Below, in pieces: positions 8,301 through 14,300 of a stretch of 64,000 nt of DNA. Within the stretch, counting starts at the first letter, position 1. Every line of letters starts with the position of its first letter. Source of the stretch: Panopea generosa (lineage: Eukaryota; Mollusca; Bivalvia; Adapedonta; Hiatellidae). The stretch covers positions 36,281,492-36,345,491 of the forward strand of contig CM055907.1 of the NCBI GenBank assembly GCA_029582155.1, written 5' to 3'. Made by a program: the position numbers and the translations under genes. The notes under the pieces are model-generated. The model saw nothing but the letters and a program-made list of their open reading frames with translations, searched no databases and was not told the DNA's origin.

Positions 8301-11300
8301 GCCAAAAACATTGCGATATCAGAATTTGTCTTTAAGATAAATATTTATTTTCATCACCTGATAATTGTCATATCTCAATTGTACTTGCCCTTTCATATTC
8401 CGTGCAGTAGAATTACACTGTTGTGATAAATGCTCATATCCGGGTCATTCTTCGAATTGCTCGGCAGTGTGATATATACATGTAAGTCGTTCTGTTATAT
8501 TGACAATGAGACTGATTGATTGAATCAAATGATATTTATACAATTCACATGTATAATTCAAAATACTCAATTTGATGATACAATGTTTGCAACACTCTTT
8601 CAGACATAAAACTGACACATTTACCGTAGACCGAAAAATAGTGGAAAAAAAATGTGAAAAATAACATGCGCAGATTTTCACACGACGTGAAACACAAAAC
8701 AATATTGTGTCAACCATTATAATATCAAGATAAACATTCAATTAAAGGTGTAAAATGATAATTTGGGGAACTGAAACTGGCATCGAGATATCCGAAAAAT
8801 GGACACAGCCAATATTGAGAATAAAGAAATATATTTACATACAAAAAGAAGGGGAAAACTTAGGAACGTCCAAAAATATCAACAATACTGGAATATCGTC
8901 TTAAGCGATATCGACATAACGAGTTTCATCTATACACGGCAAAACTTTCGTCACTAAAGTTTTCAGACTGAGCTGGGCTAAATCCAAAGACCTCAGTGAT
9001 GAGAGACGAGTAATCTTAAGATGCAACTAAGACCATTCGGTCACGAAGGAGACCACTTACATGAATTTGTAATTATATTCCAAGATATAAAAATAAATTT
9101 TAATTTTACAATGAACTAGGTTTTAAGTTATCTTTGATGAAACATATAAGATAATTGTAAAGATTGTGCACACTTTTGTACATATACATGGAAGTTGTGA
9201 GATGTAAATATATTCCCCAATAAAAGCAACATCAAGATGAACTTTACCACATAGATAGATATCTCGAGTATTCCACTGAAGTCCTTCACGACAGCTTTAG
9301 GAGTAAAGAAGAAACCGTTGGCAAGGATTTTCAGGCCCATCTCAATACTCATTCCAAGGACAAATAAGTACTCTGCAATCTGAAATCAGTATTAAAGTGT
9401 TACTAAAATTTTTAAGTCTGACATATTGTCATTCATGCTGGTATATTGGTACATCTAGAAATTTTCAAAACTAGGGCAATAAATTTAAGATTTTAACTTA
9501 AGACACAAGGATACAAATTTTTAATTGAACCAAGTCTGTAGTTCTCATAATTTTGGTGTCAGAGAGTTACTTAATTTTGGTGTATTGGCAAATCTGTAGT
9601 AACTTATCCGTGATTTTGCTGTATTGGCAAGTCTGAAGTTACTTGCCTGTAATTTTGGTGAATTGACGAGAGTGACCTGTAGTTTCTTACCCGTAATTTT
9701 GGAGTATTGGCAAGTCTGTAGTTACTTACCCATAATGTTGGCATATTAGCAAATCTGTAGTTACTTACCTATAATTTTGGTGTATTGGTGAGACTAACTG
9801 ACCGTAATTTTGGCATATTGGCAAGTCTGTAGTTACTTACCCGTAATTTAGGTGTATTGGTGAGTCTGTATTTACTTACCCATAAATTAGGTGTATTGGT
9901 GAGTCTGTATTTACTTACCCGTAATTTAGGTGTATTAGTGAGTCTGTAGCTACTTACCCGTAATTTAGGTGTATTAGTGAGTCTGTAGCTACTTACCCGT
10001 AATTTAGGTGAATTAGTGAATCTGTAGTTACTTACCCGTAATTTAGGTGTATTAGTGAGGCTGTAGTTACTTACCCGTTATTTAGGTGTATTAGTGAGTC
10101 TGTAGCTACTTACCCATAATTTAGGTGTATTAGTGAGTCTGTAGCTACTTACCCGTAATTTAGGTGAATTAGTGAATCTGTAGCTACTTACCCGTAATTT
10201 AGGTGTATTAGTGAGTCTGTAGTTACTTACCCATAATTTAGGTGTATTAGTGAGTCTGTAGCTACTTGGCCGTAATTTAGGTGTATTAGTGAGTCTTTAG
10301 TAACTTACACGTAATTTAGGTGTATTAGTGAGTCTGTAGCTACTTACCTGTAATTTAGGTGTATTAGTGAGTCTGTAGCTACTTACCCGTAATTTAGGTG
10401 TATTAGTGAGTCTGTATTTACTTACCCGTAATTTAGGTGTATTAGTGAGTCTTTAGTTACTTACCCGTAATATAGGTGTATAAGTGAGTCTGTAGCTACC
10501 GTAATTTAGGTGTATTAGTGAGTCTGTAGCTACTTACCCATAATTTAAGTGTATTAGTGAGTATGTAGCTACTTACCCGTAATTTAGGTGTATTAGTGAG
10601 TCTCTAGTTACTTACCCATAATTTAGGTGTAATAGTGAGTCTCTAGTTACTTACCCGTAATTTAGGTGTATTAGTGAGTCTGTAGCTACTTACCCATAAT
10701 TTAGGTGTATTAGTGAGTCTGTATTAACTTACCCGTAATTTAGGTGTATTAGTGAGTCTGTAGCTACTTACCCATAATTTAGGTGTATTAGTGAGTCTGT
10801 GGTTACTTACCCGTAATTTAGGTGTATTAGTGAGTCTGTAGTGCGGTGTCTCATACATCATTGATATAAGTGAGACTATGGTGACCATGATCATGATCCA
10901 GTCGAGGTAAGTCACCAGACCAAACAACTTCCTGATCCACAGTGGGCTGAAAATATACATAATTACATATATACCATAAATATATAATGCCTCAGTTGTC
11001 AACATCAAATAAAAAGTTAATTTCACACAGATCCCAAGGACAGTTGTGACCTAGTCTCCAATTGGTTAAAATTGTTTCCCAGTTTTCAGTGAAAATAAAA
11101 AAGTGATTCTTAGAGGAGAATGACTGAAGTTCTTAATGCTTTAAGTATACACTGATCATATGGTACATCTACTGTAGTATTTACAGGGTTATGTGGTCCT
11201 TCTGGGGTACACTTAGTTACAGGGTGCTGTCATATTTACAGGGCACTGTCATATTTACATGGCGCATTCATACTTACAGGGCGCTGTTATACTTACAGGG

Positions 11301-14300
11301 CGCCTTCATACTTACAAGGCACAGTCATATCTACAAGGCACCATCAAACTTACAGGGTGCCATCATAATTACAGGGCACCATCATACTTACAGGGTGCCG
11401 TCAATCCTTACAGGGCACCTTCATACTTACGGAGTGCTGTCATATTTACAGGGCGCATTCATACATACAGGGTGCCTTCATACTTAGAGTACTGTCATAT
11501 TTACAGGGCGCTGTCATACTAACAGGGCACTTTCATACTTACAAGGCACTGTCTTACTTACAGGGCGCCATCATATTTACAGGGCACCATCATACTTACA
11601 GGGTGCCTTCATACTTACAGGGTGCTGTCATATTTACAGGGTGATGTCATACTTAAGGGCACGTTCATACTTACAGGGTGCCTTCATACTTATTGAGTGC
11701 TGTCATATTTACAGGGCGCTGTCATATTTACAGGGCGCATTCATACATACAGGTCGCCTTCATACTTAGAGTACTGTCATATTTACAGGGCGCTGTCATA
11801 CTAACAGGGCGCCTTCATACTTACAGGGCGCCATCATACTTACAGGGTGCCTTCATACTTACGGATAGCTGTCATATTTACAGGGCGCTGTCATATTTAC
11901 AGGGCGCCTTCATACATACAGGGCGCCTTCATACTTAGAGTACTGTCATATTTACAGGATGCTGTCATACTAACAGGGCGCCTTCACACTTACAAGGCAC
12001 TGTCTTACTTACAGGGCGCCATCATATTTACAGGGCACCATCATACTTACAGGGTGCTGTCATATTTACAGGGTGATGTCATACTTAAGGGCACCATCAT
12101 ACTTACAGGGTGCCTTCATACTTACATGGCACTGTTATATTTACAGGGCACTGTCATATTTACAGGGTGCCTTCATACTTACAGGACGCCTTCATAATTA
12201 CAAGGCACTGTCATACATACAGGGCACCTTCATGCTTACAGGGTGCCATCATACTGACAGGACACTGTCATACTTACAGGGAGTCGTTTTACTTAGAGTA
12301 TGCTGTCATACCTACAGGGCACCATCATACCTACAGGGCGCCATCATACCTACAGAGTGCCATCATACTTACAGGGTGTCATACTGACAGGACAGTCATA
12401 CTTACAGGGCACCGTCTTACTTACAGGGCGCCTTCATACCTACAGAGCATCGTCATACCTACAGGGTGCCGTCATACTTACAGGGTGCTGTCATACTGAC
12501 AGGACACTATCATACTTACAGGGTGCTGTCTTACTTACAGGGCGCCATCATACCTACAGAGCGCCGTCATACTAACAGTGCGCCTTCATACTTTCCGGGC
12601 GCCACCATACCTACAGGGCGCCTTCATACCTACAGGGCGCCACCATACCTACAGGGCGCCACCATACTTACAGGATGCCATCATACTTACAGTGCGCCGT
12701 CATACTTACAGTGCGCCTTCATACTTTCAGGGCACCACCATACCTGCAGGGCGCCTTCATACCTACAGGGCGCCTTCATACCTACAGGGTGCCACCATAC
12801 CTACAGGACACTGTCATACTTACAGGGTACGTTTATATACATTAGGCACCTCCTTCCCAGTGAGTGGATCACGCAGCATGTAGTTGTACTTGGCATTTAC
12901 AATTATCTGACAAACTTTCCTCAGTTTGCTCTCCCGGCCCACAGAAAATAAGGGCGTGTCAAAAAACGGGTGATTTTCTCTAAGGTCATCCTGAAGCTGG
13001 CTCCTGGAGTTGGCAAACAAAAGAAAAAACAGTAAAATATGGAAACAGAGTTACGGGTTAAATACAGAAATATGGTTAACCTTGCCAAGGACTTGTATAG
13101 AAGGATAGGAAACTTGCATCTGCTGACTAAATGTTGATAAACAGCACATGAAGGATTCATAATTTTCAAATTAATCATTCATAATTCACAGGCAACTGAT
13201 TTATTGTACATAAACTGTAAGTTGTATGTAATCTTATATGTCAAAATGATCTTGAATTAAAGATATTGAGGTTTGAAAGAAAAATTATCGTAATTTGTCG
13301 TTATTTTAGCTGCAGTATCAGGGCTCGAATTTAAGCACTCGCCACTCGCAAAATGCGAGCTGTATTTTGAAAATGTGAGTTGAAATTACTTAAGCTGGCA
13401 TTTTTTTGCGAGTGGATTTCAAGTTGAAAAATTACTTATTGTATTCATTTTATTGATTTTTGAAAATAAACAAGTATTATCCTGGTAAAAATAACGAGTT
13501 CTTGTCAATTTAACCAAATTTCTTTTGCTTCTCGCGCCAAATTACCCCCTAGCAGCACGATTGTCAATGACATGTATTAAATATTTAATATGTGTAGACT
13601 GCGTCCAATTGTTTTTGATCTCAAGTTCATTCTGCAAAAAGGGAGTAAAGTTAAAACCCGTCAACAACATAATGAGAAGACTGCGTCTAGTTTGATTGAT
13701 CGCGCACTCACTCTATAAAATAAAAGTAAAGTTGAAACCCGTCAAATTTATTGTTTACATATTTTGTCAGCTGTTAAAGTGGCTGATAAAATAACATCTT
13801 TTTCTCCATTGTACCGACGAATGAAAGTGAGTCCCAACAAGAAAAAAAAGACAAATAATCCTTCCGTTAATACTGTAATGAAATGGGAGCGACAGCTCAA
13901 TATCACACAGGGCTATAAACTTGACAATGACAAAATGGTGTGTCAATTGTAGAAACCACCGCGATCGACAGATCATCCATAATAATTAAACTATATTACT
14001 ATGATGTCACAACATTTACACATGTTAAACAATCGTCCTTGGCTAGATCTAGATCTTATTTTAAAACGAAAGGCCATTGGCTATATTAATTCTATAAATA
14101 GAAATGTGTGTATGTCTCAATCTTAGTCTCTGTACACTTGTTATGATTTATATTTTGGTTTAGTTAAAGTGTTTATTTATGATATATCATTGTATGCATT
14201 TATTTATAGTAGTATAATAAATAACAAAGACAATTTTATTTTTTTAAATATTTTGTTTTGTAAAGTACTGCTTTGAATTGTACCTTAACATATATAATAA

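Follow-up and report, generated by a model that had tools for sequence, protein, structure and literature searches.

A stretch of 64,000 nucleotides from the bivalve Panopea generosa (GenBank assembly GCA_029582155.1, contig CM055907.1, positions 36,281,492 to 36,345,491; hereafter the window) carries a NALCN gene on its minus strand, and the intron behind exon 19 of this gene opens with a minisatellite of 19-bp units, the first of which contains the last four bases of the exon together with the 5′ splice site (donor). We regard this array as quite probably a neutral repeat of the kind known as mirages in amphioxus, seeded from the splice donor and constrained in its first unit only. The extra copies are striking but probably neutral, without clear sign of being kept for use. 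The donor-seeded NALCN minisatellite is nonetheless real, and it adds to a known kind of repeat that includes the mirages and the minisatellite of human IFI6.

The gene is recognized by its exons, which are placed by tblastn, with a human NALCN sequence as query, between about 55.6 and 2.2 kb of the window, and whose joined translations match human NALCN (7cm3, 6xiw) in phmmer with E=1.5e-71. Exon numbers 19 and 20 are taken over from a preliminary description of this DNA. Approximate limits apply to exons 1, 5, 9, 11, and 18 and to the starts of exons 19 and 20, and no exon 17 was located in the exon mapping of the window. Exon 19 ends in ...AAACGTACCCT/GTAAGTATG, the slash marking the exon-intron boundary, and its reading frame leaves 2 nt (phase 2) at the donor. 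For exon 20, two starts (10946 and 10931) share the same phase, and the donor CCCT/GTAAGT fits either of them. The upstream acceptor at 10946 is the stronger-looking of the two, giving 245.5 bits and a protein five residues longer than the human one at the exon 19/20 junction, compared to 252.3 bits for 10931, with which the alignment of the joined exons to human NALCN is gapless (query 4-201 to chain 823-1020). Exon 19 thus ends where homology predicts, and the frame together with the gapless alignment supports the CCCT/ donor as the authentic one, presumably also the one used in the cell.

Tandem Repeats Finder (TRF) places the array at 11217-12827 and counts 85.4 copies at 76% matches. Unit 1 reads CCCT/GTAAGTATG, i.e., the array begins exactly at the exon end and spans the exon-intron boundary, its exonic part being only the final 4 nt of exon 19. 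The preliminary description had this string open a series of about 80 tandem 19-bp units over 11180-12830; wraparound alignment bears this out, with 85 full units and 1 partial, and because by eye at least one further degenerate copy lies near 11188, the span is right as well. The exon end itself was tried as one more degenerate unit and rejected, the 15 nt before CCCT being matched or beaten by 48 of the 146 exon 15-mers. No copy of the unit at 15/19 or better was found elsewhere in the window (ungapped, both strands, four rotations), and the array pattern has no match in bacterial, archaeal, or viral contigs; for relatives of one NALCN exon, 9 and 132 stretches in viral and genome contigs, respectively, matched a search pattern for that exon and none was confirmed. 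Within the array, which represents one haplotype, blocks of 7-13 units resemble each other at 90-92.5% (90% was the search threshold), compared to 75.6% over all unit pairs, and these block duplications suggest past turnover.

Such an arrangement probably started from a duplication, via slippage or unequal exchange, of a 19-bp segment containing the last four exonic bases and the donor. From there the duplicated segment would have spread through the intron, at a later stage several units at a time, with purifying selection acting only on the first unit, the real donor, and with the remaining units drifting while being homogenized by repeat turnover. As exon 19 reads on into the array, the triplets ACC CTG TAA place an in-frame stop within unit 1, and therefore all later donors would bring an in-frame TAA into the mRNA; in translation, each of units 2-8 adds an in-frame TAA.

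The downstream donors may instead be functional decoys, either as a platform recruiting U1 small nuclear RNA (U1), which aids splicing of the exon or suppresses premature polyadenylation, or as a poison device lowering NALCN output via the stop that any downstream choice yields. We consider this improbable, even though GT is kept in 76 of the 86 units. The longer motifs thin out, GTRRGT being found in 43/86 units, GTAAGT in 31/86, and GTAAGTAT in 25/86, and the near-perfect U1 match formerly ascribed to most units is accordingly overstated. The variant GTAAAT occupies 16/86 units, which speaks against decoy function, and GTAGGTAT is present in 12/86. Donors were scored by base frequencies over 23 donors of the gene, or 21 once the two array donors are removed; those of exons 5, 9, 11, and 17 were omitted as not surely placed, that of exon 22 was taken at 7760, and that of exon 1, scoring 0.4, may be misplaced. 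The authentic exon 19 donor stands at 7.25 bits, the median of the 21 others being 7.6, and it is equaled or exceeded by 24/86 units if its own is counted, leaving 23 downstream donors, a richness that functional decoys would show.

Shuffled controls, as proposed in the preliminary description, point in the same direction when single letters are shuffled: with each unit represented by its best donor irrespective of register, 25/85 units reach at least 7.25 bits, compared to 4.3 ± 2.0 (maximum 10) in 500 letter shuffles, the partial unit 86 being left out of the letter-shuffle, column-permutation, and variability tests (85/86 used). Moreover, a donor above 0 bits is present in 85/85 units, which none of 500 arrays reached when columns were permuted in common and the repeat structure was kept. 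However, 25 strong donors are reached in 4.6% of these 500 column-permuted arrays, and therefore much of the donor richness goes back to a single ancestral unit that carried a donor; the observed count of 45 units with at least 5 bits is reached in 8% of the 500 trials. At the median donor score of the gene, the array holds 2 sites, compared to 5.5 ± 2.2 in 500 dinucleotide shuffles, which likewise disfavors functional decoys. The array is not rich in strong donors but donor-rich by descent, full of middling donors because it descended from one middling donor.

Variation among the units also fails to follow what U1 would demand. Over the nine donor positions, variability is unrelated to positional importance for U1 (Spearman 0.07, P=0.86), and the -3..+6 block is only fifth among the 19 rotations. 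Among the donor columns, +4 and +5 vary most, with heterozygosity of 0.35 and 0.36, and mean heterozygosity is 0.182 for +1..+6 compared to 0.084 for the low-value positions +7..+10. Accessibility was tried as a property singling out unit 1 and rejected, unit 1 being no more open than the others in local RNA folding (rank 62/86).

Three observations weigh against a neutral array seeded by chance at the donor, and the first two of them speak for functional decoys. First, mean heterozygosity of the donor block is 0.178, compared to 0.406 for columns 0 and 14-18. CpG decay may lie behind part of this excess variability outside the donor block, because the four most variable of these columns make up the unit's two CpG sites; the change in column 14, C to A, is not of the CpG decay type. 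Second, the 28 exon-proximal units score 5.0 bits compared to about 3.1 for the rest (rotation P=0.024), which could reflect constraint close to the exon or simply the presence of subfamilies; with blocks so much alike, the units do not vary independently, and a subfamily effect may therefore underlie the gradient. Nothing shows that U1 matching of the units is maintained or used, and no function is shown.

The third observation concerns the other arrays of the gene, one of which, with a 39-bp unit, spans the donor of exon 20 in the adjacent intron. This array had been described as differing in unit length and sequence and as the product of an independent amplification, and both statements hold: the best ungapped match between the 19-bp and 39-bp units is 9/19 (shuffled mean 8.7, P=0.51), by which a shared origin is rejected and two independent events are supported. 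Altogether 13 arrays, defined as merged TRF rows with a period of at least 15 and at least 3 copies, were used for random placement within 2214-55650; they do not include an array at 32353-32455, although one of its rows qualifies (period 23, 3.3 copies). Four of the 13 touch a junction or lie within 20 bp of one, compared to 0.73 expected (P~0.004, post hoc; all junction P values are from 5,000 random placements in this one gene), an excess not expected from seeding purely by chance. Two arrays span donors, compared to 0.24 expected (P=0.024), or to 0.46 when acceptors are included (P=0.074), and over twelve combinations (six distances, two junction sets) P ranges from 0.004 to 0.096, the thresholds having been picked post hoc.

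Two in-register donor arrays and two more within 20 bp of a junction might mean that minisatellites are preferentially born at splice junctions in this lineage, an idea that we hold to be rather unlikely. If true, it would imply a mutational process linked to junctions, for instance breakage at R-loops or transcription pauses, and mirages would then extend beyond amphioxus. The presence of two independent arrays next to each other makes junction seeding of minisatellites testable. Plain coincidence, by which a genome rich in arrays has one or two that touch a donor, agrees with the 13 arrays in the window and with the P values for spanned junctions, but has little probability in view of the excess within 20 bp and of a unit that in both donor cases contains the junction itself, in register.

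An equally low probability attaches to the array having come first, as an intronic minisatellite that reached the exon edge and lent one GTAAGT copy to exon 19 as its donor. Consistent with this, many units match the authentic donor in score, and with acceptor 10946 HMMER places the gap for the five additional residues at the exon 19 end, as an extended exon would give. However, these residues disappear with the better-scoring, gapless acceptor 10931, the exonic bases before CCCT are not unit-like, and the window holds no unit copy outside the array. We infer that the donor preceded the array.

A minisatellite in human IFI6/G1P3 (6-16), as Turri is said to have described in 1995, supplies multiple splice donor sites. 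Two downstream minisatellite units of human IFI6 are described as being used as donors (PMC4526556). The NALCN array is likewise a minisatellite multiplying splice donors, but the extra IFI6 donors give isoforms, whereas the downstream NALCN donors are predicted to give an in-frame TAA, and units 2-8 would offer no viable alternative product. The closer likeness is to the mirages of amphioxus, outlined as repeats of minisatellite type that straddle exon-intron boundaries of Adh3 and globins and that have counterparts of similar kind in TnC and PGBD5 (PMC3087553, PMC3902484). The NALCN array shares with them the tandem minisatellite, the spanned boundary, and the many units with splice signals, and the range of Adh3 units, given as 10-72 bp, includes its 19 bp (PMC3902484). 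Unlike the mirages, the NALCN case belongs to another lineage, comprises about 86 units, and is one of two arrays in adjacent introns of one gene. In the accounts of amphioxus Adh3 and globins, reverse transcription PCR suggests that regular splicing is undisturbed (PMC3087553, PMC3902484).

Tandem repeats multiplying splice signals have also been proposed to create introns (PMC4974935, PMC2812944, PMC3087553), and tandem repeats at exon-intron boundaries of human paralogues may form introns, as summarized there (PMC2812944). Unlike such intron gain, the NALCN array sits inside an existing intron and no new intron has arisen; the consensus 19-bp unit has AG solely within GTAAGT and no matching acceptor, and some variant units hold an additional AAGG. 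An intronic 27-bp minisatellite is outlined for abalone, the outline naming no junction link (PMC6905558). Among the matches listed, as seen from titles and abstract starts, no mollusc or NALCN case of a donor minisatellite appears, which is not proof of absence. The array may be viewed as a natural competition of tandem donors, in which 23 downstream donors equal or exceed the authentic one by the frequencies used and each choice would bring a stop, and a comparison of RNA with DNA at the array would show the weight of exon position over donor strength in 5′ splice-site choice.

Table 1. Coordinates of the 19-bp array, its flanking exons, and the other junction-associated arrays in the window
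Feature	Position	Strand	Basis and remarks
19-bp minisatellite, 85 full + 1 partial units, unit CCCTGTAAGTATGACGGCG	11214..12827	-	TRF, wraparound alignment (86 rows)
Degenerate distal tail	11180..11213	-	By eye; at least 1 further copy, CCCTGTAAATA, ~11188
NALCN exon 19 (end ...NVYKRT + CT, phase 2)	12824..13003	-	phmmer, tblastn, frame; upstream limit approximate
Authentic 5′ splice site CCT/GTAAGTATG, intron base 1 = 12823	12815..12826	-	7.25 bits
Next NALCN exon, exon 20	10811..10946	-	Start 10946 or, better by homology, 10931
39-bp donor-spanning array, 33 rows	9572..10842	-	TRF, alignment; last 32 nt of exon 20 = unit 1
31-bp array	15137..15368	-	Starts 17 bp after donor of preceding mapped exon; donor not included
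30-bp array	38461..39359	-	Ends 11 bp before acceptor of domain II pore exon (E form)

The 39-bp array of exon 20 has GTAAGT in 26 of its 32 donor-bearing rows, the authentic one counted. Its unit equals 13 codons, and use of the donors of the next two units (10693-10810) would add 13 or 26 in-frame residues, at a site that we take to be the domain III S1-S2 loop from channel topology; the third further unit brings a TAA. The segment 10501-10800 of this array is far more stable as folded RNA than 60 mononucleotide shuffles of it (z of -6.6), unlike the 19-bp array with z of 0.6 and 1.2.

Around the domain II pore, the gene carries an upstream exon with LTQEGW (E; 38309-38449) and a downstream exon with QTQKGW (K; 29694-29831), which match the EEEE/EKEE pair outlined for invertebrates (PMC3557258). 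As given there, this pair fits molluscs, annelids, flatworms, echinoderms, or hemichordates and speaks against amphioxus as the lineage of the NALCN array (PMC3557258). The 30-bp array next to the E exon contains 17 exact copies of the acceptor-like ATACCAGG in its approximately 30 units (38461-39359), and by eye its unit is similar to that of a 33-bp array at 40415-40630. Two 40-bp arrays, at 17196-17985 and 20916-21169, also have consensus units that look similar by eye, as a dispersed satellite would show.
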